Source: Rhodothermales bacterium
GTDB taxonomy: Bacteria; Bacteroidota; Rhodothermia; Rhodothermales; Bin80
NCBI GenBank assembly: GCA_012271205.1
Contig: JAAXGT010000020.1
Coordinates: 1-37,380, forward strand
Direction: 5' to 3'
Length of the DNA: 37,380 bases
The position numbers and the translations under genes were made by a program. This document shows, in pieces, positions 7,159-36,704 of the stretch. The notes beneath the pieces are model-generated. The model made no database searches. It was not told the DNA's origin and saw only the letters and a list, made by a program, of their open reading frames with translations. How positions within the stretch are numbered: position 1 is the stretch's first letter; every line of letters starts with the position of its first letter.

Positions 7159-8304
7159 GTGACTAGGAGTCCACAACCATACCGCACGATAATTGAGTCG
7201 ATTCACATTCGAGGGTTTCGTTCGTTGGCCAACGTACATCTCGCGGGATTGGGCCAAGCGGTTGTCCTCATCGGCGCAAACGGTTCAGGGAAATCGAACC
7301 TAATTCGGTTCTTCGAGATGCTGAGTTGGATGCTCCGCGCACGGCGGCTCGGCGAGTTCGTCGAGCGACAAGGAGGTGCTGACGATCAGCTCTTCGGCGG
7401 TCGGTCATCCAGCACGGTCATCGAGGCTGAGATTCGACTGCGCACGAGCCAAGGTCTAAATGACTATTCGTTCACGCTCGTGCATGCGCATCCAGACCGT
7501 TTCTTCTTCACTAAGGAAGCATTTCGATTCAGCGGGGAAGGCCGTCAGGAGACGGCACCGTGGCAATACCTAGGAAGTGGTCATCGAGAGGCAGAGATCA
7601 TGGAAACGGTGAAGATTGATTCCCCCTCTGTCAATCCCACCACGGCCCGTGTCATCGTTAGTCTGCTAAGAAGTTGTGCCGTTTATCAGTTCCACGACAC
7701 ATCAGACACTTCGGCCTTCAAGAAGAGATGGGACGTAGACAGTAATAGCACCGAACTCCGCAGTCACGGTGGCAATTTAGCCGCTGTCTTGTACCGTTTG
7801 GAGCATGAGGACCCGCGGCGATACGAGTTGATTTGCCATCAGATCAGCAGAGTGTTGCCGACCTTCGACCGTTTCACCATCTCCAAGCGCTATGGCCAAG
7901 TATTCTTGAGTTGGAAAGCAAGGGGACAGGAGAAGACCTTCGGCGCACATCTCACATCCGACGGCTCCCTCCGGTTCTTCGCTCTGGCGACGCTTCTCAA
8001 CCTGCCATCTGAGATGCTGCCGCAGGTGTTACTACTCGACGAACCGGAGTTAGGCCTGCACCCGGCGGCCGTTTCGCTGGTCGGCGACATGATCAAGTCG
8101 CTTTCTGCGGATCGACAAGTCATCGTGGCGACGCAATCGCCATTGTTGGTGGATGCCTTCGATATCGATGAGATCATCGTGCTGAACCTAAAGGATGGGC
8201 GGACCGAACCACAAATCTTGGATCGAAATAGGTACTGCGAGTGGCTGGACGAGTTTACTGTGGGTGAGCTTTGGCAGAAGAATCTGCTAGGCGGCCATCC
8301 ATGA
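7159..8304 (+). CDS. AAA/ABC-type ATPase (OLD/RecF-like, AAA_21 type)
   Basis: A 381-aa ATPase of the SMC/RecF/OLD kind. Walker A is GANGSGKSN (39-47), preceded by IHIRGFRSLANV, the usual family opening. The signature-like motif is TSDGSLRFF (~266-274) and Walker B is LLLDEPELGLHP (~291-302), followed by VIVATQSPLLVDAF in the switch region. There is no fused nuclease domain: the protein ends soon after the ATPase C-lobe. The start is a GTG at 7159, with no strong Shine-Dalgarno. The stop overlaps the ATG of the DUF4276 gene (ATGA), so the two are translationally coupled. Known relatives pair such ATPases with a Toprim-type effector in phage defence (OLD, PARIS, AbiL); a defence role here is inferred from this arrangement. 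Confidence 0.88.
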   Translation: MTRSPQPYRTIIESIHIRGFRSLANVHLAGLGQAVVLIGANGSGKSNLIRFFEMLSWMLRARRLGEFVERQGGADDQLFGGRSSSTVIEAEIRLRTSQGLNDYSFTLVHAHPDRFFFTKEAFRFSGEGRQETAPWQYLGSGHREAEIMETVKIDSPSVNPTTARVIVSLLRSCAVYQFHDTSDTSAFKKRWDVDSNSTELRSHGGNLAAVLYRLEHEDPRRYELICHQISRVLPTFDRFTISKRYGQVFLSWKARGQEKTFGAHLTSDGSLRFFALATLLNLPSEMLPQVLLLDEPELGLHPAAVSLVGDMIKSLSADRQVIVATQSPLLVDAFDIDEIIVLNLKDGRTEPQILDRNRYCEWLDEFTVGELWQKNLLGGHP

Positions 8305-8945
8305 CTCGACTCGCCATTGTGGTCGAGGGAAAGACGGAGAAAGAGTTCATAGGGAGAGTTCTCTCAAGACACTTGAAAGGGAAGGGCATCAAGCCGACAC
8401 CGATTCTGCCAGGACGCGGTCGCGGCGCACGAGGGGGCAATATTAGCGTTGATAGTATCGCACAGGAAATGGCTCGACTCTACTGGCATTTCGATATGGT
8501 AACGTCACTCGTAGATTACTACGGTTTTCGCGACAAGGGCACAAGGACTGTCGAAGAGCTAGAGGAGTATCTGAAAGAGAAAACGCGCCACCGAATTCCT
8601 CGTAGATGGGACTCGCGAAAGATCTTCCCCTATGTTCAACAGCATGAATTCGAGGGTCTTCTGTTTTCGGACGTGAGTGCTTTTTCGACATTGCCGGATG
8701 CGCCGACGGACCTGCAGGCTTCATTACACGAGATCCGTTCCCAGTTTCCGACTCCCGAAGATATCAACGACCACCAGAATACGGCCCCCAGTAGGCGCAT
8801 CCTTAGACTGATGCCCAGATACCGGAAGGTCGCTAACGGGTCAGTTGTAGCTGAAAAGATGGGACTCGACGTGATCCGCGCGGAGTGTCCTCGATTCAAT
8901 ATTTGGGTGAAGAAACTAGAATCACTGAGAACTGCTGGCTGCTAG
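8301..8945 (+). CDS. DUF4276 family, Toprim-like partner of the ATPase
   Basis: A 214-aa protein starting at the ATG in the ATGA overlap. It opens with LAIVVEGKTEKEFIGRVLSR, where Glu9 in EGKTE is the Toprim-type acidic residue, and continues with VTSLVDYYGFRDKG, where Asp72 lies where the second acidic site would be, then FPYVQQHEFEGLLFSD, the strongly conserved DUF4276 block. DUF4276 proteins are usually found beside predicted ATPases of exactly this type. By analogy with the Toprim halves of OLD, PARIS and AbiL, this would be the nuclease or effector subunit controlled by the ATPase. Its 3' end overlaps the convergent Doc pseudogene by 24 bp. Family call is confident; enzymatic role is inference. 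Confidence 0.85.
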   Translation: MTRLAIVVEGKTEKEFIGRVLSRHLKGKGIKPTPILPGRGRGARGGNISVDSIAQEMARLYWHFDMVTSLVDYYGFRDKGTRTVEELEEYLKEKTRHRIPRRWDSRKIFPYVQQHEFEGLLFSDVSAFSTLPDAPTDLQASLHEIRSQFPTPEDINDHQNTAPSRRILRLMPRYRKVANGSVVAEKMGLDVIRAECPRFNIWVKKLESLRTAGC

Positions 8946-25354: not shown

Positions 25355-26201
25355 ATTGCCGTTATCTAGTTGTGGACCGGTCGGATTGGGTCGCAAATTG
25401 CACTCCGGGTGGATATGGTGATTCTTGGCATTGAGTTTGGGAGGCTATGACGCGGTTTGGTGCTAATGCCGTAAAAGTCGCTCATCTTCGTCCGGTAAGC
25501 AATGCACAACTTAGCACCTTGGTTTCGAATCTTGAGCATTACTGCTGTGGGGGATTTGCATTTGATTCGTGTCTGTGGAAGAGCATGCCCGCGGTGCTGC
25601 TTGGCTTGCAACTGGCCTGCTATGATACGGAAACGAACGCGGTGTTAACGGGGAGGATCGCACCGTAGAACCGCAAGGGCCATCCGAGAATGGATTGGTG
25701 GTGCATGACGTGGATGAATATCGTCGAACACGCGAATACAACCTCAGACAAAATTGAGGTTGTAGAGGCGCTGAATGAGTTCTTGATGCGAGAGAAGCAC
25801 TCGGGGCACGCAAGTCGTCTCTGCCTTGCGCATCATAACGGGGCTGGAGTTCACCGGATGGTTACGTTGAACGGTATCCGGAGCCGCTGCTTGGCATCGT
25901 AAATTCCAGGAATCCAAACGTCACGACGCAGCTGGCCTGTGCGCAGGAAGATCCTGTTCTTTTGGAAAAGCTGCCGCCATTGTGCGGGATGACGATGCCC
26001 TGACGACGAGAGGAATTACGGATGGATGGTGGCACTGTAATCTTCGGAATAGCGTGGAACGCATGCTGGCAGGCGAGATCTAGGGCGATAATGCGGCCAG
26101 AACCGGCCAATGGGCAACCTTGAGGCATCGTGTCGTCCAAAATGGGTACTTTTATGAGGAGCACTCGTTGTTACAAGAATTGCCAGCTTGCGACCACCCG
26201 G
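25355..26201. other. long divergent gap with possible decayed coding remnants
   Basis: About 850 bp between the CRTAC1-type gene (minus) and the GWxTD-like gene (plus). It must hold both promoters. Two plus-strand stretches read like coding sequence with no intact gene around them: NGLVVHDVDEYRRTREYN (25680-25740 region, ended by TGA) and GITDGWWHCNLRNSVERMLA (26010-26080 region, ended by TAG), the latter flowing into GQWATLRHRVVQNGYFYEEH. I cannot assign them. A decayed gene is possible. Confidence 0.35.
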
Positions 26202-27992
26202 ATGTCTTCTCTTTCCAAGCGAGTGTGCTGCGCGGTGTTTGTAACGGTGGTGACAAGCATACCGGGGCAGTTAGCAATCGATGGACTTCCACTTGTGGGG
26301 GCTCAGACGTCCGCCGAGCCATCAGCGACGCCTGTGGAAATGGAGGCTGCAATCAAAGTCGTCTTCGATGAGGGAAATATTCTCGCCTATGACAGTGCTG
26401 CCCGAGTGTATCTGGATATGCTGCGCGCGGGCACCAAGTCTTGGACCGGTGCCGACAAGTCTGCACTTACGCGGCAACTGCACTTTGTCTCACTTATTGC
26501 GCCTCGGGCAGGTACAATTCGAGCTGCGCTGAATGCGGTGCTCGGCGAACGTGCAGATTCCACGAATGCGCTGGCACTCGTGCGCTGGTGGAACCAGCAA
26601 GACCCGGTTCCCGCTACGTTGAATAACGAGCGGCTGGAGGAACACCTCTTCCGCATATACTACGCCCAGCGCAACTACGCTTTTGAGGAAGACTCACTGG
26701 GTGTGGATGACCGGGGGCGCATTTTTATTCGCCTTGGATTCCCATGGCGCAGCACGCAAATCAAGTTGAGATCGGCTGGCTTGAGAATGCAGCCATTCCA
26801 AGTGACCATACCCCGTAACGAAATATGGGTATACCGCCCGTTGCACGATGATGCGCACTACCTTTTTGTTCAGCGGTCTCGTAGAAAACCCTTTACACTT
26901 GCTACCTCGAGAGACTTGATTCCTCCTGATTTGCGTATGTCCAGGCGACGGGTCCAGTTGCTCTTGACATGGTTGGAAGAGATCTTCGGACAACTTACGC
27001 TGGAGCACCCCCATTATGGTCCGACGTATGATGCAGTCACTAACTACTTGGCGTTACCCACCTCGGATGCACTCCAACCCTACAACTTCTCGCAGCACAT
27101 CATGGAGCAGATGCGCATACGAGATGATTACCATGTGCAAAGCCGAATGCGCACCGTCCCACCGTCAGCCACTCAGGTGTATGGTAGTGCGCATACGCTG
27201 ATACCCTTGGTGCGTACTGCCAGATTCTTGCAGCCTAACGGTGCAACACGTCTTGAAATTTACTGGACACTCGATTCAGATGGGCTGGAACCTCGGCGCC
27301 GTCGGGTAAACAGACTCACACAAGAGGGCCATATCCCTTCTGAAACCTATCTCTTGGCCGTTTCCGCGACTGAGCGAGACTCAAACTTCGCCCCTACGGA
27401 AATCAGAATGCGGCACTACAGTGTACCGACCAGGATGCAAGGGCTCCTGCCGGTTCATGCCTGGGTAACTCAGGACTTCGATAGCAAGTTGAATTTGGTG
27501 TTGCAGTGGGAGCAGTTCTGGAGTACTACCGATTCCACTGGCCAGCGTATTCCAAGTGTAACTCTTGGCATCGGTACACTCCCGATTGACTCTGTTCAGG
27601 TCTTGGATGCCAGTGGGCACAGCTTGGAAATGAGCGACATCCGTCCTATGGTTTTACCTGCTAGCGGCAATCTTCAAGGCGCCGTGCCGTATGTGGCCGA
27701 TACTCTTTCGGCTGCAACTAAACTCGCCCTGTATTTCGAGGTGTACCACTTGACCTATGGTAACGACGACAAAACGCGGTATACGCTAGAGTATCGCATC
27801 GCGGCGCCCGGTGAAACCCCCATCACGGCAAGCACCACCTATGAGGGCGAGGCACGGGTGGTTCGGGAGCAACTGGCGCTGGACGTCAGCACATGGTCGA
27901 AAGCCGGCCCCATAACCATCACACTCCGGGTTAAAGATGAGGTCGCTGGCGCTCTGGCGTCACGAACCATCCCGTTCACGTTCCGCAGATAA
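26202..27992 (+). CDS. exported GWxTD-like domain protein
   Basis: A 596-aa protein using the ATG at 26202, which gives a clean signal peptide (SSLSKRVCCAVFVTVVTS, cut after LVGAQ); the frame is open to a GTG at 26130 and an ATG at 26154. Its middle (about residues 100-250) matches the GWxTD domain pattern: RWWNQQDPVPATLNNERLEE, then SLGVDDRGRIFIRLGFP followed by EIWVYRPLH. The diagnostic Trp of GWxTD is replaced here (GVDD), so it is a divergent member. The C-terminal half is beta-rich. These proteins are exported in Bacteroidota and of unknown function. It is convergent with susD across a two-sided terminator. Confidence 0.7.
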   Translation: MSSLSKRVCCAVFVTVVTSIPGQLAIDGLPLVGAQTSAEPSATPVEMEAAIKVVFDEGNILAYDSAARVYLDMLRAGTKSWTGADKSALTRQLHFVSLIAPRAGTIRAALNAVLGERADSTNALALVRWWNQQDPVPATLNNERLEEHLFRIYYAQRNYAFEEDSLGVDDRGRIFIRLGFPWRSTQIKLRSAGLRMQPFQVTIPRNEIWVYRPLHDDAHYLFVQRSRRKPFTLATSRDLIPPDLRMSRRRVQLLLTWLEEIFGQLTLEHPHYGPTYDAVTNYLALPTSDALQPYNFSQHIMEQMRIRDDYHVQSRMRTVPPSATQVYGSAHTLIPLVRTARFLQPNGATRLEIYWTLDSDGLEPRRRRVNRLTQEGHIPSETYLLAVSATERDSNFAPTEIRMRHYSVPTRMQGLLPVHAWVTQDFDSKLNLVLQWEQFWSTTDSTGQRIPSVTLGIGTLPIDSVQVLDASGHSLEMSDIRPMVLPASGNLQGAVPYVADTLSAATKLALYFEVYHLTYGNDDKTRYTLEYRIAAPGETPITASTTYEGEARVVREQLALDVSTWSKAGPITITLRVKDEVAGALASRTIPFTFRR

Positions 27993-28051: not shown

Positions 28052-29581
28052 TTACCTGTCCCACCAGACGCGGGTTGTGAACTCATCTGGTCCCTGCTGG
28101 GAGACCGCGGCGCTGTAGTTCTCCGGATTGGCTACAGCCTCTGCTTCCCGATAGCGCAGTCGCCGCGGAATAGTGCCACCGGTTACGTTCCCGGGATAAT
28201 TCACAGGAGTGAACTGCGGATAGCCGGTACGGCGCCAGTTGGCAAACGCTTCGTACTCGTTAAGCAGCACAGCTGCCCAGATCTGCTCATTGATTTGCTG
28301 CATTCCCGTGGCCGCGTTGTAGGGATTGGCAGTCAGATATGCGTCAATGCTTGCACCGTCAATGGCGGCATTTGGATCATACATACTGAGGTATTCCATG
28401 GCCGCACGCACACCGTTTTCGTAATGTGTGGCAGCATTACCCGAGTGCCATCCACGCACAGCTGCTTCCGCTTTAAGCAGTTCAACCTCGGCGTAGGTCA
28501 TAAAGAACATGGGGTCATCCTGTCCCTTGATCATCGGGTTCGGCTGCATGTACACGTCCATACCACACGGCTCCGCACCGCCGTCACAGGAAATCCAACT
28601 TGGATCGTTTTCGATGCCATTGGCCGGATCCGATCCGCCGGCAATCTTCCCGTTGGGCATGCCTATCGGAGCGCTGCCGGCAACTGGAATCACACCGTAT
28701 ACCTCGAGACGCGGATCGCCGTGAGCCACCATCCAGTCTACAAAGAATTTGGATAGTCGGGGTGAGCCATCTGCCAAAAACACGGAGCCGTTGCCATTTC
28801 TCCAGCCTGAAGGATCATTGTGTGGCACGTAGGCTATGTCTGCGTTGCTGGTCATAGTGCCACCGGCAATGGCTTTCGATACCCAGCTCTGTGCCGCACC
28901 TGGATCCACCTTGACCAGTCGCATCCCAAGACGCAGCATCAGGGAGTTAGCCAACTTGCGCCACTGCTCTACATTCCCCTGGTACATTAAGTCACCGGAC
29001 CCGAAGCTGCGGTTGGCAGGATTGAGCCCCGTGGCAGCTGCCTCCAGTTTAGCAAGCATGTCCGCATAGATATCGCTCTGCTGGTCATACTTGGGTTGCG
29101 TGATGCCTTCGATAAAACCCTTTCCTGCTTCGGAATACGGAACGTCTCCGTAAAGATCCGTCAACCGGTGATACATAATCACACGCACAATCTGGGTAAT
29201 GTGATGCAAGTTCGCATCTTCAGGATCTTCTGAGGTCTGCAAAAGCAGGTCCTCCAAGTTCTTGGCGATGTTCGGGTAGTACCGGTCCCACATTGCGGCA
29301 GAGTACGAGCCAATGTACGTGTACTTGTCCCCTGCCCAATAAGTAGGCAATGTTGCGAAATGCTGGATCATAACCGAACTGTAGATCAGGTTGGTCCGCC
29401 AGTTTTCGTAACGCTCTCCACTGATTCTGAGCTGGATGTTGGTCAGCTTAAAGTTCGGGTCGACCTGGTTTGCCTGCGTCGGGTTCACATTCATCTCCTC
29501 GAACCCGGCGTCACACGACGCGAGCATCAGCAAACTTGCGGCCAGCAACGCTCCCGAGAATAGCTTTATGATGTTTTTCAT
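28052..29581 (-). CDS. susD: SusD/RagB-family nutrient-binding lipoprotein
   Basis: A 509-aa surface lipoprotein (lipobox LLMLASC, Cys23). After it comes the SusD pattern of helices: AMWDRYYPNIAKNLEDLL, ITQIVRVIMYHRLTDLYGDVPYS, and FFMTYAEVELLKAEAAVRGW, ending in WRRTGYPQ. This layout belongs to the SusD-like subgroup 2 (SusD-like_2). With SusC it forms the outer-membrane pair that captures and imports oligosaccharides or peptides. The start ATG is 39 bp after the susC stop, and both face minus. The substrate cannot be named; no glycoside hydrolase is in the window. Symbol is by family. Confidence 0.93.
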   Translation of the reverse strand: MKNIIKLFSGALLAASLLMLASCDAGFEEMNVNPTQANQVDPNFKLTNIQLRISGERYENWRTNLIYSSVMIQHFATLPTYWAGDKYTYIGSYSAAMWDRYYPNIAKNLEDLLLQTSEDPEDANLHHITQIVRVIMYHRLTDLYGDVPYSEAGKGFIEGITQPKYDQQSDIYADMLAKLEAAATGLNPANRSFGSGDLMYQGNVEQWRKLANSLMLRLGMRLVKVDPGAAQSWVSKAIAGGTMTSNADIAYVPHNDPSGWRNGNGSVFLADGSPRLSKFFVDWMVAHGDPRLEVYGVIPVAGSAPIGMPNGKIAGGSDPANGIENDPSWISCDGGAEPCGMDVYMQPNPMIKGQDDPMFFMTYAEVELLKAEAAVRGWHSGNAATHYENGVRAAMEYLSMYDPNAAIDGASIDAYLTANPYNAATGMQQINEQIWAAVLLNEYEAFANWRRTGYPQFTPVNYPGNVTGGTIPRRLRYREAEAVANPENYSAAVSQQGPDEFTTRVWWDR

Positions 29582-29620: not shown

Positions 29621-32600
29621 CTACATTCGCACGTTGACATTCAAGCCAACACTGCGTGTTTGTGGCACGCCGGAATGTTCCAGCCCGATGCCCCGGTTAG
29701 TGTTGTTGAAAATGGACTCCGGATCGAGATTGTCTACGTTGCTGTAAAGCAGCCACAGGTTGCGCCCCACCAGTGAAATAGACGCAACCTTGATTGGCGT
29801 ATTCACAAAGAGGCGGGTAGGCAATCGGTAACTGAGCTGAAATTCACGCAGCTTGACAAAACTGGCATCGTAAATAAATTCCTCTCCGATAAAGCCACCA
29901 CCGATTCGAGTCCAGTACGTCTGCGGATCCGTCTGCACGGTGTTCGGATTGCCGTCTTGATCGACTCCCTCACCCACGATGTATCCTTCACTACGGCCTT
30001 GCAGCGTGTTCTTGTGAAGACCATTGTCATACCCGGCACTGTTGGTGACGGAGAAAATATCGCCACCAAAGCGCAGATCGAACAGCATGCCTAGTGTTAG
30101 ATTGCGCCAGCGAAGCGAATTGCTGATCCCGCCCAGCATAGTGGGCGTGCCATTGCCCAGCACGCATAAGTCCGCCGTACGCATGGGTCGACCGTCACTG
30201 TCATGCACGATTGGTCCTGTGGCATCACAATCGGATCCACCCGCTGGTACGTTCTGGCGTAGATATTTGCGTCCCTTGATGGATCCGTAAGGTTCACCCA
30301 CATCTGCTGTCACGAAGTTGCCACGATGGCGGCTTTCTGCAAGCACGAGGGAAGTCTGCCCTTCCACGAGTTCCACGACCTCGTTAACGTTGCGTGAGAG
30401 ATTCACATCCAGATCCCAGCGCCAGTCTCCTGTGCGATACGGCGTTGTGGAAAGCAATAGCTCAACCCCGCTATTCTTGATTTCGCCGGCGTTGATGACT
30501 TGGCTGCCAAAGCCGGATGCGCTTGATATTGTGGTGGAAAGAATCTGATCTGTAGCACTTTGGGTGTAGTACGTAAGGTCTACACCGATTCTGTTGTCCA
30601 AAAAGCGTACGTCAAAACCACCTTCAATTCCGACACTGGAGGATGGCTTAAGCTCTGCGAGGGGAATCTGGCCTTGAGCCACACCACCTCGCGGCTGTCC
30701 CAAATGGCTGCCCTGCAAGCTGTAGGTCAAAGCCAGGGAGTAGGGATTCGTATCGCCGCCGACCTCCGCCCAAGATGCACGCACTTTGCCGAAACTTACC
30801 CAGTCAGGCAAGTCCAGCGCGTCCGTGAACACAAAGCTGCCACTGATTGATGGATAGAAGTATGAGTTGTTGGTGACAGGTAGCGTGCTGGACCAGTCGT
30901 TTCGCGCAGTCAGTGTGACGAACAAGTAGTCGTTATACGACAACTCGGCAGAACCATAAAGTGAGTTAATCTGCTTTTCGCTGAGTCCGTATCCATGGGA
31001 CCGCGTGTTCTGATTGGTCACGACCTCCAAACCGGGTACGTTAAAGCCGCCACCACCGCTCAGCGTGAGATTTTCGCGGTGACGGTACATAATGTTGCCG
31101 CCAGCTGTTGCCAATAGACCAATGTTGTTGGTCAGTTGACGATCCATATTGAGCAGGAAGTCTGTGTTGATTTCTGTAATTCGGAACTCCTGCTCTGACT
31201 GATTGCCGAGCGGGTTGTAGGCTGTACCCCAAGGGGTGATACCGGTGCGGCGAGTTGTATAGGTATCGCCACCGAAGCGGCCCGTTAATGACAGCCAGTC
31301 CGTGAACTGGTAGGCCAGTGAGGCAAACCCGATTATTCGGCGATCTTCATCCGAGTTGGTAAACTGGTGGGCCGCCCAGTAGGGATTCTGCTGGTAGATA
31401 TTGCCAAACAGCCCGCGGTGCAGCTCCCTCCCGTCTGTGTCCGTCCCCGGGTCTGCACAAGCTTCATCCTCGGGCGGACAGCGCATCGTGGTCACATCCA
31501 CATTTGGAGCCAACTGATAAACCGAGTAGTTGGCGTTACCTGGAGAGTCACTCAGGCGCGGCCGATTATTGACGAATTCACGTACGACATTTAGCTTTGC
31601 ATCCGCACTGAGCCGCGTACCGAATTGCGAAGTGCCCCGCATTGAGAACGAAGTCCGGCTAAGCCCTGAATTTGGGCTTATGCCCTGATTCTGCAAGTGG
31701 GAAAAACCCATTCGGATCGAGCTTGTAGCGGTTGCCGTGGTCAGCGCGAGGCTGTTGGTGGTTGTAAGACCTGTGTTATAAAAACTGTTTACGGGATCGA
31801 CAGCCTGGCTGTACGGCTGCATAGTGCCATCCCAGCTGATTACGTTTGCACCATCGAGCAGGGGGCCCCAAGCCTGATCCACGGTGCTCAATGCTTCATC
31901 AACAGAGGTTGGCTTCCCGCCACGTATGCCTTGACCGTACTGGCTCTGCCAATCCGTATTCACGAGCACGTTTTCAAACGTGGTGTTGCTGGAAAACTCA
32001 ATCCCCAGTCCGAGCCCCGGCGTAGCACTCTTGGTTGTGATAAGAATTACACCGTTCTTGGCACGCGTACCATAAAGGGCAGCAGCGGACGGTCCCTTCA
32101 GCACAGATATGGATTCGATATCATCGGGATTCATCGAACTGATACCATCGCCGCCATCGGTCCCCCCCCACATGCCTGCGCTACCCAGAGTGGTGTTGTC
32201 GATAGGCACACCATCGACGACATACAGCGGCTGGCTGTCCTCACCCAGCGACGACGCGCCACGAATAATGACGCGGCTCGAACCAGCTGGTCCTGTTGCC
32301 GGCTTGGTCACCAAGACGCCAGCAACTTTTCCGGCCAAGGCGTTGGCTACATTGTTTTCGCGTGCTTCCCTGAGCTCTTCGCCACTCACCTCAGAGACTG
32401 CATAACCCAAGGCACGCTCTTTGCGTTCGATACCGCCGGCTGTAACCACCACCTCCTCCAACAGACCAATGTCTTCCAGGAGTGACACTGACAAGTCAGC
32501 CTGGCCCTCTACAGCCACGGTCTGCGTCACATATCCTATGAAGGAGACAGTAAGCGATACATCTGCGTTGGAAACCGTCAGGGCAAACGTACCGTCAATG

Positions 32601-32809
32601 TCAGTAGACGTACCGTTAAGCGTTCCCACTTCCACTACAGAAGCTCCGGGAAGCGGCATGTTGTCTGTGGCGGACACGACTGTACCCCGCACAGTATGAG
32701 GCTGTGCTTGCGCCATAGTACTCACCACGGCCGTCAGAAGGAGTATTCCGAATGCCGCCAGTAAGCGCCGGTGCCGCATAGCAACCCTTAGCTGGTTTAA
32801 CTGCTTCAT
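29621..32809 (-). CDS. susC: SusC/RagA TonB-linked outer-membrane transporter
   Basis: A 1062-aa TonB-dependent receptor. The ATG at 32809 is used because MKQLNQLRVAMRHRRLL is followed by a signal peptide hydrophobic core and AQAQ cleavage site; codons upstream are open but would break it. The first mature domain is a carboxypeptidase-D-like regulatory domain (VRGTVVSATDNMPLPGASV, residues ~38-110), then the plug with VVDGVPIDNTTLG and ISVLKGPSAAALYGTRAKNG, then the large barrel ending in LNVNVRM. It works with the adjacent SusD and a TonB complex elsewhere. Confidence 0.94.
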   Translation of the reverse strand: MKQLNQLRVAMRHRRLLAAFGILLLTAVVSTMAQAQPHTVRGTVVSATDNMPLPGASVVEVGTLNGTSTDIDGTFALTVSNADVSLTVSFIGYVTQTVAVEGQADLSVSLLEDIGLLEEVVVTAGGIERKERALGYAVSEVSGEELREARENNVANALAGKVAGVLVTKPATGPAGSSRVIIRGASSLGEDSQPLYVVDGVPIDNTTLGSAGMWGGTDGGDGISSMNPDDIESISVLKGPSAAALYGTRAKNGVILITTKSATPGLGLGIEFSSNTTFENVLVNTDWQSQYGQGIRGGKPTSVDEALSTVDQAWGPLLDGANVISWDGTMQPYSQAVDPVNSFYNTGLTTTNSLALTTATATSSIRMGFSHLQNQGISPNSGLSRTSFSMRGTSQFGTRLSADAKLNVVREFVNNRPRLSDSPGNANYSVYQLAPNVDVTTMRCPPEDEACADPGTDTDGRELHRGLFGNIYQQNPYWAAHQFTNSDEDRRIIGFASLAYQFTDWLSLTGRFGGDTYTTRRTGITPWGTAYNPLGNQSEQEFRITEINTDFLLNMDRQLTNNIGLLATAGGNIMYRHRENLTLSGGGGFNVPGLEVVTNQNTRSHGYGLSEKQINSLYGSAELSYNDYLFVTLTARNDWSSTLPVTNNSYFYPSISGSFVFTDALDLPDWVSFGKVRASWAEVGGDTNPYSLALTYSLQGSHLGQPRGGVAQGQIPLAELKPSSSVGIEGGFDVRFLDNRIGVDLTYYTQSATDQILSTTISSASGFGSQVINAGEIKNSGVELLLSTTPYRTGDWRWDLDVNLSRNVNEVVELVEGQTSLVLAESRHRGNFVTADVGEPYGSIKGRKYLRQNVPAGGSDCDATGPIVHDSDGRPMRTADLCVLGNGTPTMLGGISNSLRWRNLTLGMLFDLRFGGDIFSVTNSAGYDNGLHKNTLQGRSEGYIVGEGVDQDGNPNTVQTDPQTYWTRIGGGFIGEEFIYDASFVKLREFQLSYRLPTRLFVNTPIKVASISLVGRNLWLLYSNVDNLDPESIFNNTNRGIGLEHSGVPQTRSVGLNVNVRM

Positions 32810-33245
32810 ATTGGTATATGCTGGATTTGGTGAAAAGTGAAAGCGACTAAAGGTAACAAAATGCGTGCAGAACTCAACCTCCGGCACGCCTTAATTTTAT
32901 GTCTCACTGGCCTGTCCCGATACACAGTGGTCCAATGCTCTGGATCCGGGACGGGGAAAGTTTCTGGACAGATGCAGTATGGGGCATATCGGCCAGATTT
33001 GACGCCACACAGATACATGCAGATAAACTTTCGCGGAAAACCCTGCCCTGATACCGACGAAACCAGTCGAGTACCCAAGTGCCGAGCCGAATATTTCTAA
33101 TTCCCCTCTGAAACTGCACATGCGACGCTGCTTCAGGCTGTTACACAAGCAGACCAATCCTCTGAGAGCATAGTAAGCCTGCCTGACCGGTCCGATTCTG
33201 AAAGCACACTGAACGGTCCAACCAGCAACGGTACGCAACCGGCTT
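32810..33245. promoter_or_regulatory. upstream region of susC
   Basis: The 436 bp between the end of the first Mrr-like gene and the susC start. It should contain the susC promoter and its regulation. I see no Bacteroidota-type TTTG / TAnnTTTG pair that I would trust, and no gene. Small plus-strand frames here lack motifs. Confidence 0.35.
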
Positions 33246-34154
33246 CTACAAGCCCGCGAAGTATTCTTCTTGCACTTCGCCGATCTCGACCACCTTCACG
33301 CCCAGTTGCTGCTCCCGTAACATGTCGCACAATTTGTAGCCGTCTACGAGATCTATCGGCGGAGCGCCGTCCCGTACTGCCTCTTTTGTGGCCGCGTCGG
33401 AGAATTGTCCAGTCGTAATGATTAGTCCCTGATGGGCTCGGCCCGCCATGGAACCTCGGAAGTTTTGGATTACATCCGGGCCAACAGGAGTGTCTGATCG
33501 GATTGCATGAACCATCGTACTGAAGGAAATCAGGCTTACGCACAGCGTCCCATATCCGACAAAACTGTCGTTTTCGCTGCCCTCCTCAATCGACAGTGAC
33601 GAGAATCCAGCGCCTGCCAGCAAGCGCTCACACAAACGCTTGAACTGTACGCCCGACAGCCCTTTCACGTGATTCAAAACGGTATCGCGCCAAGACACTT
33701 GCAGCGATGCTTCCTGGCGGCGGACGCGCCGTCCCGGTCTGGATATCTTGGCTGGAGCCGCTGCGGACGCACCCAAGACACCTAAGCGCTCTTTACGGGC
33801 ACGAGTTGTTTTTTCCAGTCGTACTTTGCGCGCGGAATTTATCGCATCCCTGTACCGACGCAGCAATTCGTCCTTGCTTTCAATACTGTGCCCCAGTGGG
33901 GTTACCTGCCAGACTTTGCGACGAACCGATTCTATAGCGCCCGTTATCCTGAGCGCTGTGCGTGCCCAACTCACCCGATGATGTATCTCGGTCTGTGGAC
34001 CGTCCTTATGCAACACTGTGAGCTGCTCGGACGAAAACTGCATGTCGGAGACGACGCGTGCAAACATACCTTCGTTGGTGGCTTGGCCACCAAGGCCCTT
34101 AATTGCGTTCAGCGTAGGCCACAATATGTCATTGTATTTTGGGAGTTCAGCCAT
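33246..34154 (-). CDS. Mrr-type restriction-like protein A, catalytic residues missing
   Basis: A 302-aa protein with the two-part layout of Mrr restriction proteins: an N-terminal winged-helix DNA-binding domain (residues ~1-90, YNDILWPTLNAIKGLGGQAT) and a C-terminal Mrr_cat domain (~155-285). The latter begins GLSGVQFKRLCERLLAGAGF and ends NFRGSMAGRAHQGLIITTG, then PIDLVDGYKLCDML, all typical. But the active-site boxes are altered. The usual GGIDGVG Asp position reads SFVGYG (197-202, Val instead of Asp), and the QxKR box reads HAIR (216-219), with Ile at the Lys position. The nuclease is therefore probably dead. Its paralogue sits 83 bp upstream. Whether it senses, binds or inhibits is unknown. 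Confidence 0.82.
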   Translation of the reverse strand: MAELPKYNDILWPTLNAIKGLGGQATNEGMFARVVSDMQFSSEQLTVLHKDGPQTEIHHRVSWARTALRITGAIESVRRKVWQVTPLGHSIESKDELLRRYRDAINSARKVRLEKTTRARKERLGVLGASAAAPAKISRPGRRVRRQEASLQVSWRDTVLNHVKGLSGVQFKRLCERLLAGAGFSSLSIEEGSENDSFVGYGTLCVSLISFSTMVHAIRSDTPVGPDVIQNFRGSMAGRAHQGLIITTGQFSDAATKEAVRDGAPPIDLVDGYKLCDMLREQQLGVKVVEIGEVQEEYFAGL

Positions 34155-34237
34155 AACAGTGATTCTGAATTAACGGTTAGTTCGTTTGGTTGGCCATTTC
34201 ACGACCTGGGATCTGGGGGTTGCACTTTGCGTGCGAA

Positions 34238-35146
34238 CTACAGCTGTTCGAAAAACGCAGCTTCCGGTAAACCAACTCGGACCTTTCGTACGCCGATTTT
34301 GCGACGCATGAGTTCCTCGCAAAGCATTTTGCCGTCCAACAAGCTTATCGCAGGTGCACCTGCGCGTGCCGCCTCCTCCGCTGCGCCATCAGCAATCGCC
34401 CCCGTCGTTATATAAATGCCCTTGTCCGCACGGCCGAGCAGGCTTCCGCGGAAGCTGCAGATGTCGCTTGGTTGCACCAGATTACCATTCCTTGTAATCC
34501 GGAAGCAGACAGAAAATGAAGCCAGACCGACCCGTGTGGTACCGACGCCCTCTACACTATCATACTCGGTACTGTTCGTAACAGATGGTGTCTTAATTCC
34601 CACTGCCACAAGCAATCGCAGGCACAGCCGTTCAAACTGCTCTCGCGAAAGCCCCGCCAGTGTTAGTAGCAAAGCACTCTGCCATTCCGATACGTCCAGC
34701 GCTGGAGACACCTTCGGCTGAGGTATGGAGGGCTGCGCTGTCTCGCCCCTTGGTGCGGGGGCTCTGCGACGTTCAACTGGTTTACCGGGCGCGGGCAAAG
34801 GTTTCCGCTTCTTTGCGCTCGCCTTGAAATATTCTCCCAACGCCACACGCACCAACTCCCGCACCTCGGTCTCTGATGACACATTGCCCCCCTTTGACGT
34901 CAATGCCCATTGACCTCTTCGGGGATTGTCAAGAAGCCCTGCAATCTTCAGATGAGAGCGAGCCCAACCCATTTTCAGGGATAGATTCTTACCTTCAGAC
35001 TTGGTGTTATCCAAATAGTCATTGGGCAAATCTAGATTGGCAGCCATACGGCCTAACAATTCCGAAGGCGTTGCACTACCATTGAGATCGCGCATCGCGA
35101 CCAGCATGGGCCAATACAAATCTTTGAAGCTACTAACTGATGCCAT
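34238..35146 (-). CDS. Mrr-type restriction-like protein B, catalytic residues missing
   Basis: This is the second 302-aa Mrr-family protein, with the same domain plan as its neighbour: winged helix (FKDLYWPMLVAMRDLNGSAT), Lys/Pro-rich linker (~110-150), and Mrr_cat domain (GLSREQFERLCLRLLVAVGI, SFRGSLLGRADKGIYITTG, APAISLLDGKMLCEEL). At exactly the same residue numbers as in the neighbour, the active site is changed: SVEGVG at 197-202 has Glu for the Asp, and RITR at 216-219 replaces QxKR, with Thr for the Lys. Equal length and matching positions show a tandem duplication. It is upstream of protein A on the same strand, with 83 bp between them. An IS630-type element lies 160 bp upstream. Confidence 0.82.
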   Translation of the reverse strand: MASVSSFKDLYWPMLVAMRDLNGSATPSELLGRMAANLDLPNDYLDNTKSEGKNLSLKMGWARSHLKIAGLLDNPRRGQWALTSKGGNVSSETEVRELVRVALGEYFKASAKKRKPLPAPGKPVERRRAPAPRGETAQPSIPQPKVSPALDVSEWQSALLLTLAGLSREQFERLCLRLLVAVGIKTPSVTNSTEYDSVEGVGTTRVGLASFSVCFRITRNGNLVQPSDICSFRGSLLGRADKGIYITTGAIADGAAEEAARAGAPAISLLDGKMLCEELMRRKIGVRKVRVGLPEAAFFEQL

Positions 35147-35306
35147 TCGGAACGCTTGAATATGTGGAAATCACCGGCTGAACCATACATTAAGCAAAAT
35201 AAAATATTACTTCAAGCCAGTCGATTCTACAAAACGAATGCTAGTGTTGTGTCCTGGATGTAGACATGTACAGGACAGCCTGATTAAGTCACAACAATAC
35301 ACAGTC
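35147..35306. other. gap upstream of the Mrr-like pair with a solo IS630-type end
   Basis: AT-rich space upstream of the Mrr-like genes, so it probably carries their promoter. CTAGTGTTGTGTCCT at 35241-35255 matches the outer end of the adjacent IS630-type element (35306-35320) at 14 of 15 bases, in the same orientation. It is followed by TGTCCTG...CAGGACA (35250-35277), an inverted repeat. It may be a leftover end of a second copy. Confidence 0.5.
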
Positions 35307-36551
35307 TAGTGTAGTGTCCTAAACATAATAGTGGTTATGCAGAAGCGGCGGCCAGTGCCGGCCGGCTCCGCTCGACTTTCTGGAGCATCTTGTCGGCCGG
35401 CTTCGTCCAGACCAGGGGCCGGGGATGCTCGTTGCAGGTCTCGAGGTAGTCTTGGAGGGGCCGCTCCAGATCCGGCACGGAGGGGAAGACGCCACGGTGA
35501 AGCCGCTGCTTGGTCCGCGGGCTGAAGCATCGCTCGACCCGGTTCAGCCCCGACGCACAGGTCGGTGTAAAGGGCCGGAAGAGGCGCTTCGGCCGCTCGA
35601 TCCAGTCCAGGATCCTGGGGGTGCTTGGGGGTCGCGTAGTGATCTAGGATGAGGGGGATCTCTGGGCTCTGGGGCCTGGCTTTCTCCACTGGGCGAAGGC
35701 ATGTCAGCCCCTCCGGGTGGCGAGGACGCGGGTACGTCGGGCCGATCACTTGGCCTGAGGCCCCCTCCAAGGCTACGAACCGGGTCGGGGGGCCGGGGCG
35801 CTGGTAGTCAGGCGTCCGGGTTCCGCCGCGGCCCTTCTTCGGTGGCCGGCCCGGCGGCGTCCGGTCCCGCGCCTGGATTGAGCTCTTCTCATCCAAGCGG
35901 AAGACCGCCGCCTTCTCCGACGAGTTCAGCTACCGCCCGACCCCGTCCTGGAGCTTTTCCTCGAAGTGCGAATCGCGGCTCCCCTGGAAGGTCCGTACCC
36001 AGGGCGGCTTCCGTCCGCCCGAGCGCCCCACTCGATGCCCGAAGCGGGGAGGGGTCCCGGCCGCCCGTGCCCTCGACCGGCCCGGCCCGTGCGTCGCCTC
36101 CGGCGGCTCGGTCGGCGTCGTCAGACGGATCACCGGGCTTCGGAGTTCGGCTGGGGCCGGGGAGCACGGGCCCCCATGGTAGCCGCCCCGCCCTCGTTCG
36201 GCCCAGCGTCGTCTCCAGCGGCCGACCGGGTTCGGGTCCGTTCCCCGCGCCGGGGCCAAGGCTTGGTTGGTCCGGCCGTCCGCGACCCGGAGCCCCCTCG
36301 GCGACCGCTCTCGCCACCGGACCGACGCGCGGCGCGAGCGCGACCACCGTTCCAGGCCCGGTTGGTCCGTCTCCGTCCACTCGATGTGGACGGCTACTCG
36401 CAGGGGTCCTCCTTTTCTTGGAATGTACGAGGCGGTAAAGATCGTCCATTTGGAGGACCTAGCAAATCTTTTATTCACTACACTAAATCAAAAAAACCTG
36501 ACATTAGTGGCTCCTCCTCATAATTACTATTATGTTCAGGACACTACACTA
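35307..36551. mobile_element. IS630-type element with 32-bp terminal inverted repeats
   Basis: The left end at 35307-35338 and the right end at 36520-36551 are reverse complements at 29 of 32 positions. Both ends start with TA, the target duplication of the IS630/Tc1-mariner group, within CTAG. Between them lies the transposase pseudogene on the minus strand. Length is 1245 bp, normal for IS630-type elements. The ends could still be recognised by a related transposase acting from elsewhere. Confidence 0.85.
35335..36478 (-). pseudogene. IS630-type transposase, frameshifted
   Basis: From an ATG at 36478 the first frame gives LERWSRSRRASVRWRERS (usual N-terminal helix-turn-helix region), VADGRTNQ, GTDPNPVGRWRRRWAERG, VRTFQGSRDSHFEEKLQDGV. 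It ends at ~35930 and the homology continues in the frame starting at 35896: LDEKSSIQARDRTPPGRPPK (first catalytic Asp/Glu box), then IPLILDHYATPKHP (second Asp box), and further frame changes before the C-terminal VERSRPALAAASA and the stop at 35335-35337. At least two frameshifts and many Gly/Pro/Arg changes. It is inactive as read. The coding part is much more GC-rich than its surroundings. Confidence 0.82.
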
Positions 36552-36704
36552 GCTTTTTCGCGTCTCACCGGTCGGTCTGGATCCGGTCTCCGGTGCGCCG
36601 GGGCAGCGAACCAGGCGCCATGACCGGACAATCCCCCCCCCCCGAGTCCGATGGAGATCCAGGCCCTCCAGTGGCCCTCGCCATGCGGATTTGAAGAACA
36701 TTCT
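36552..36704. other. short gap between IS630 element and the reverse-transcriptase remnant
   Basis: GC-rich sequence with a long C-run (about eleven C near 36630-36640) and no recognised gene. It could be part of the decayed intron's 3' side. Confidence 0.3.

Follow-up and report, generated by a model that had tools for sequence, protein, structure and literature searches.

Two tandem Mrr-family proteins that appear to have lost the nuclease active site, with a second such array in the same bacterial family

Two neighbouring genes in the window (the whole 37,380-nucleotide stretch of contig JAAXGT010000020.1 of Rhodothermales assembly GCA_012271205.1) encode Mrr-family proteins, here called MrrA and MrrB, that appear to be catalytically dead and yet maintained by selection. 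The best explanation, given about an even chance, is that they bind DNA without cutting it, probably as hetero-oligomers, and serve in regulation or structure. A second dead array, a triplet from another Mrr subfamily, is present in related genera.

MrrA (34238..35146) is the first gene of the tandem and MrrB (33246..34154) the second; both are located on the minus strand, separated by 83 bp. An earlier note on this DNA had described two adjacent genes of 302 amino acids each with the Mrr plan of a winged helix followed by a nuclease domain, and coordinates, lengths and domains were all confirmed. The Mrr_N winged helix (PF14338, cut-off 29.5 bits) covers residues 6-89 of MrrA (34880..35131, minus strand, 56.9 bits) and of MrrB (33888..34139, minus strand, 59 bits). 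Mrr_cat (PF04471, cut-off 21 bits), in a dead form, covers residues 164-276 of MrrA (34319..34657, minus strand, 49.9 bits) and 164-278 of MrrB (33321..33665, minus strand, 56.2 bits). The blocks FRGSxxGRAxxGxxITTG and DGxxLCxxL, which the same note had listed as kept, are present, and the two proteins are 34 % identical over their whole length. Both are members of the Mrr family by descent; a phmmer search of the PDB with MrrB gave a chance match only.

The pair was looked for in relatives, and an orthologous pair in the same order was found in 'Bacteroidota bacterium isolate RHO3_bin_5' (JAPPNA010000080.1; G002), which belongs to another genus of the same family. Its MrrA (L024:8960-9799) and MrrB (L024:9819-10907) are 41 and 43 % identical to those of the home genome (G000), respectively. 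A single-protein search of genome contigs had returned no relatives; an alignment-based query did recover them.

The active site was assessed in an alignment with 36 intact relatives that came out of a scan over the genomes of 84,980 species, using patterns located outside the active site so that its state was selected neither for nor against. Glu172, Asp195, Asp199, Gln216 and Lys218 are each present in 36 of the 36 intact proteins; MrrA carries Glu, Tyr, Glu, Arg and Thr at these positions and MrrB Lys, Asn, Val, His and Ile. The catalytic Asp of the GDGGIDG box is thereby replaced by Glu at codon 199 of MrrA (34550..34552, minus strand) and by Val at codon 199 of MrrB (33558..33560, minus strand), while residues 216-219 read RITR in MrrA (34490..34501, minus strand) and HAIR in MrrB (33498..33509, minus strand) instead of QxKR, exactly the replacements first noticed in the sequence. 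In about 90 relatives from many phyla the Asp and the Gln/Glu-x-Lys are retained in full-length proteins; exceptions are limited to copies with a truncation or frameshift, the protein L015, which has Leu in place of Gln, and the dead pair and triplet arrays. The SGDGGVD ... QAK site of MspJI, a modification-dependent enzyme of solved structure, aligns, through the family profile, with the lost site of MrrA and MrrB. The MrrA orthologue of G002 retains Asp199, so that what the four pair proteins have all lost is Asp195, Gln216 and Lys218. Counted over these four proteins, family-invariant residues are kept in 2 of 20 cases in the active site and in 135 of 200 cases elsewhere (Fisher p = 6e-7, indicative as the four rows are related), which suggests that the losses are not the result of chance drift.

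Predicted structures of the pair have mean pLDDT values of 87.6 and 89.4. The Mrr_N domain of MrrA is composed of predicted helices and strands with pLDDT mostly above 90, and that of MrrB has values mostly above 95. Both models contain the nuclease core, with residue 199 on its second strand and residues 216-218 on the third. In a Foldseek search of the PDB, MspJI was the best match for each model; whole-chain TM-scores are low because the arrangement of the two domains differs, and the matched part is the nuclease core. An alternative intact active site was looked for in the predicted fold and none was found: the third core strand of MrrA and MrrB contains no Lys and the replacements vary between the G000 and G002 orthologues (HAI versus GI in MrrB, RIT versus RLH in MrrA), so no substitute site is seen. 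That the site is dead in both proteins is well supported by these residue comparisons and, judged by catalytic residues as the defining feature tested, MrrA and MrrB are not restriction enzymes of known mechanism.

Both frames had been proposed to be kept by selection, and the comparison of the pair genes of G000 and G002 agrees with this. Fourfold sites are 26-27 % identical, which is random and hence saturated, while codon positions 1, 2 and 3 are 52-54, 64-65 and 33-36 % identical, respectively. Saturated silent sites, combined with 41-43 % protein identity and this codon-position pattern, indicate that the pair proteins are maintained by purifying selection, a conclusion that is well supported at the level of sequence. 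All 13 dead genes in the five genomes that carry arrays are full-length frames.

Constraint is unevenly distributed along the proteins. In the dead orthologues the winged helix is 37-44 % identical, the catalytic half of the nuclease domain 34-35 % and its distal half 57-58 %. The resulting catalytic/distal ratio of 0.58-0.62 is that low in 0 of 630 pairs of intact proteins, for which the median is 0.97; winged-helix identity in intact pairs (42 %) is comparable to that in the dead orthologues. These ratios indicate that constraint has been lifted from the catalytic half of the nuclease domain only, and the winged helix and distal half of the dead pair appear to be constrained as in active enzymes. 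MrrA and MrrB resemble each other least in the winged helix (26 % identity) and most in the distal half (40-49 %), as would be expected for partners that read different DNA and share an oligomer interface; intact pairs are likewise most divergent in the winged helix.

The second dead array, T1-T2-T3, is located between glycosyltransferase and sulfatase genes in three genomes, each of a different species: G006 (L129:9831-12991), G001 (L163:8893-12334, minus strand) and G004 (L164:8477-11859). The nine proteins are full length, have lost the catalytic Lys in 9 of 9 cases and are without the canonical set of Asp and Gln-x-Lys. Their order is fixed, as are the flanking MurG-like glycosyltransferase and sulfatase (names read from sequence), and an operon is likely because the intergenic gaps are small. 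At the same locus in G000 and G002 the glycosyltransferase adjoins the sulfatase and the triplet is absent, while in G006 SusC comes immediately after an M16 peptidase gene and the pair is absent. Pair and triplet were never found in the same family genome among those examined: the pair occurs in G000 and G002, the triplet in G001 and G006 of one genus and in G004 of another, and ten genomes of a further genus have neither.

A maximum-likelihood tree places the pair, which forms a clade with support 82/93, in a subfamily with the motif FQCKRY, its nearest neighbours being intact proteins from unrelated phyla. The triplet (clade support 100/100) falls in a subfamily with the motif IQAKRW, next to an intact protein from the same order (99/91). 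Motif and spacing around the site likewise distinguish the two subfamilies. When all 13 dead proteins are forced into a single clade, the log-likelihood drops by 77 units (AU p = 2.3e-7, to be read with the long branches in mind and with the fact that this 13-protein group was named after the data had been seen). Tree and rejection together argue that tandem duplication with active-site loss arose at least two times in one family. Two further candidate traits were rejected. Adjacency to a sulfatase carries no functional message, as there are 16-31 sulfatase match regions per genome and the sulfatase of the triplet is a pre-existing neighbour that adjoins the glycosyltransferase also where the triplet is absent. 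The linker of the dead proteins has a charge of +1 to +14 against a median of -3 in intact proteins (p = 7e-8, with rows that are not independent), but this is weak support for a trait acquired by the dead arrays, because positive linkers also occur among intact Mrr proteins of the same family (L010, L011, L022).

The explanation of MrrA and MrrB as non-cutting DNA binders would run as follows. The ancestor would have been one active, modification-dependent endonuclease of the Mrr type, from the subfamily with a DGGIDG ... FQCKRY site. After gene duplication the catalytic centre would have been lost and the proteins retained for binding; the divergent winged-helix heads would bind DNA or a mark on it, and the distal half of the nuclease fold, which is preserved, would join A and B as a hetero-oligomer, so that the DNA-binding complex made from one operon would serve in regulation or structure. 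Independently, another Mrr subfamily, in sister genera, would have followed this path too. We infer the DNA binding, the A-B assembly, the regulatory or structural role and any link with SusC/SusD. Host self-damage is a plausible reason for losing cleavage while keeping binding: EcoKMrr harms its host once an incompatible methyltransferase enters the cell (PMC3874153), and DNA methyltransferase profiles match in all genomes tested (N6/N4 type in 8 of 8, C5 type in 6 of 8), whether or not an array is present. A correlation between methyltransferases and arrays was rejected on the same counts. Points counted against the explanation include the absence of a conserved operator between MrrB and SusC in the two genomes, the occurrence of SusC/SusD in all 16 family genomes, mostly where the pair is absent, and the finding of the pair in two genomes only. 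More tentatively, and with less confidence than in the role of the pair itself, the family may twice have made self-toxic nucleases of two Mrr subfamilies into arrays of DNA-reading proteins that do not cut but form hetero-oligomers with a chromatin-like or regulatory function, possibly recognising methylation of the cell's own DNA.

The strongest rival is a role in defence as decoy or sensor, in which dead Mrr proteins would bind modified invader DNA or phage anti-restriction proteins and give immunity without cutting; this is possible, at perhaps one chance in a handful. Inactive enzymes have been proposed to act as decoys or dominant negatives in bacterial conflict systems (PMC7159879), the best PADLOC matches of the pair are PDC-S02 candidates and the mREase_IV model, and the arrays evolve fast (orthologues 41-55 % identical, versus 76-84 % for SusC/D, the glycosyltransferase and the sulfatase), which would fit an arms race. 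Against this, no recognised effector or defence gene adjoins the pair or the triplets among the neighbouring genes inspected, the home assembly, G001 and G006 hold dead copies without an active counterpart, and the part that has been relaxed is the catalytic half, not the part that reads DNA. Elsewhere in the window (7159-8945) an AAA_21-type ATPase gene overlaps one for a DUF4276 protein, an arrangement reminiscent of two-gene defence modules.

Directly downstream of the pair lies a gene for a SusC-like outer-membrane receptor (29621..32887, minus strand, probable ATG near 32809), followed by one for a SusD-like lipoprotein (28052..29581, minus strand), both identities being read from sequence. 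The order MrrA-MrrB-SusC-SusD is the same, on one strand, in G000 and G002, which represent two genera, and the genes further out are different (infB-pnp-M16-sulfatase for G002, the IMPDH/Scp side for the window); this lasting linkage hints at a functional tie. A specific control of the adjacent uptake genes by the pair would account for it, but is unlikely. SusC/SusD orthologues occur in 16 of 16 family genomes (SusD tested, with a close orthologue in each), mostly without the pair, and so do not need it; the triplets occupy another locus; and between G000 and G002 the MrrB-SusC gap shares only matches of 9-10 bases, which is the level of chance, with no conserved operator-like sequence. An Rfam scan of the window gave no matches. 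Beyond SusD the window contains a gene for a 620-amino-acid protein without a Pfam match (26130-27992, divergent from SusD) and then one for an FG-GAP/ASPIC protein, both of which are also found beside SusD in G002; relatives of the 620-amino-acid protein (43-51 % identity) adjoin SusD in G002 and in the g6 genomes. Near SusC in G004, L268:9950-13809 holds two copies of a 453-amino-acid ORF with identical starts, whose sequence resembles that of a group II intron reverse transcriptase. The contig becomes rich in GC upstream of MrrA (69-70 % versus 54 %). A block at about 35300-36650 (GC 0.69-0.70) has near-identical inverted ends, TAGTGTAGTGTCC...AACATAATAG, and contains a degraded IS630-like transposase reading with a DEKSSIQA motif on the minus strand; it is probably a decayed insertion sequence of the IS630 type, and GC remains high onward to the end of the contig.

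The earlier note had also suggested inhibition of a real Mrr or a scaffold in a defence system. Its picture of a dead, selected and recurring pair stood; these two proposals found no support, the scaffold because the neighbours are SusC/SusD and other housekeeping or envelope genes rather than recognised defence genes. The activity of EcoKMrr is set by its oligomeric state, the tetramer being inactive and the dimer active (PMC11279042), and a dead subunit could thus poison an active one in a mixed oligomer. When the home assembly (3.34 Mb, 224 contigs, 92 % complete) was searched in six frames, no Mrr_cat came up at E <= 1 beyond the places of MrrA and MrrB, in G001 (a single contig) and G006 the only Mrr_cat copies are dead, and the one intact Mrr_cat protein of G002 belongs to another subfamily and lacks Mrr_N. 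That the pair inhibits an intact Mrr of its own cell is thus very improbable. Mrr_N occurs in the 16 family genomes in tandem dead arrays only, and viral contigs gave three distant relatives. That the pair still cuts, through substituted or migrated residues, is even harder to credit: MrrA has Glu172 and Glu199 and its G002 orthologue Asp199, but the third core strand is without Lys, the differing replacements leave no new conserved triad, and relaxation extends over the entire catalytic half. Decaying pseudogenes that stay open by chance, to which the long branches in the tree and the probable insertion-sequence remnant beside MrrA might point, are the least credible reading of all, contradicted as they are by the purifying selection seen in codon positions and saturated silent sites, by an orthologous order kept across genera and by 13 of 13 full-length dead genes.

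Relatives of restriction enzymes that have lost activity are known as isolated cases, and a search of open-licence papers found no description of dead Mrr arrays of this kind. The data suggest that a DNA-cutting enzyme was on two occasions converted into a DNA-binding protein with a different job, and a repeated route from nuclease to a multi-gene, non-cutting, selected array, of which the triplet is the second instance, is of more interest than an isolated dead enzyme. Should the pair and triplet proteins indeed recognise modified DNA, they would be candidates for bacterial readers of methylated DNA that do not cleave it. For annotation they hold a warning, as dead Mrr genes are scored as restriction genes of the Mrr type or as candidates for defence while their products would be unable to cut by the known mechanism.

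Among known systems, the Mrr type IV enzymes such as EcoKMrr (PMC3874153) share domain order, fold and the conserved distal block with the pair, and common descent is clear; the pair differs in being without the catalytic Asp and Gln-x-Lys, in consisting of tandem paralogues and in having no other Mrr at home. MspJI and AspBHI combine Mrr_cat with an SRA-like reader; MspJI is the nearest solved nuclease fold, but retains SGDGGVD ... QAK and has a different DNA-reading domain. The PADLOC PDC-S02 proteins, whose profiles match the nuclease domain of the pair (best E ~1e-16), are a candidate defence class only, and the pair is without defence neighbours. NA-iREase1 (PF22722, NACHT-associated) is also an inactive restriction-endonuclease fold, but MrrB matches it weakly (24.6 bits, below the cut-off of 27 bits), MrrA gives no match, the pair has a winged helix instead, and NACHT is absent from the Pfam matches of the scanned window genes. 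The jaw domain of RPB5, a single subunit of eukaryotic RNA polymerases, is a weak fold match to the pair models with no sequence relationship; it has a nuclease-like fold that serves within RNA polymerase without nuclease activity.
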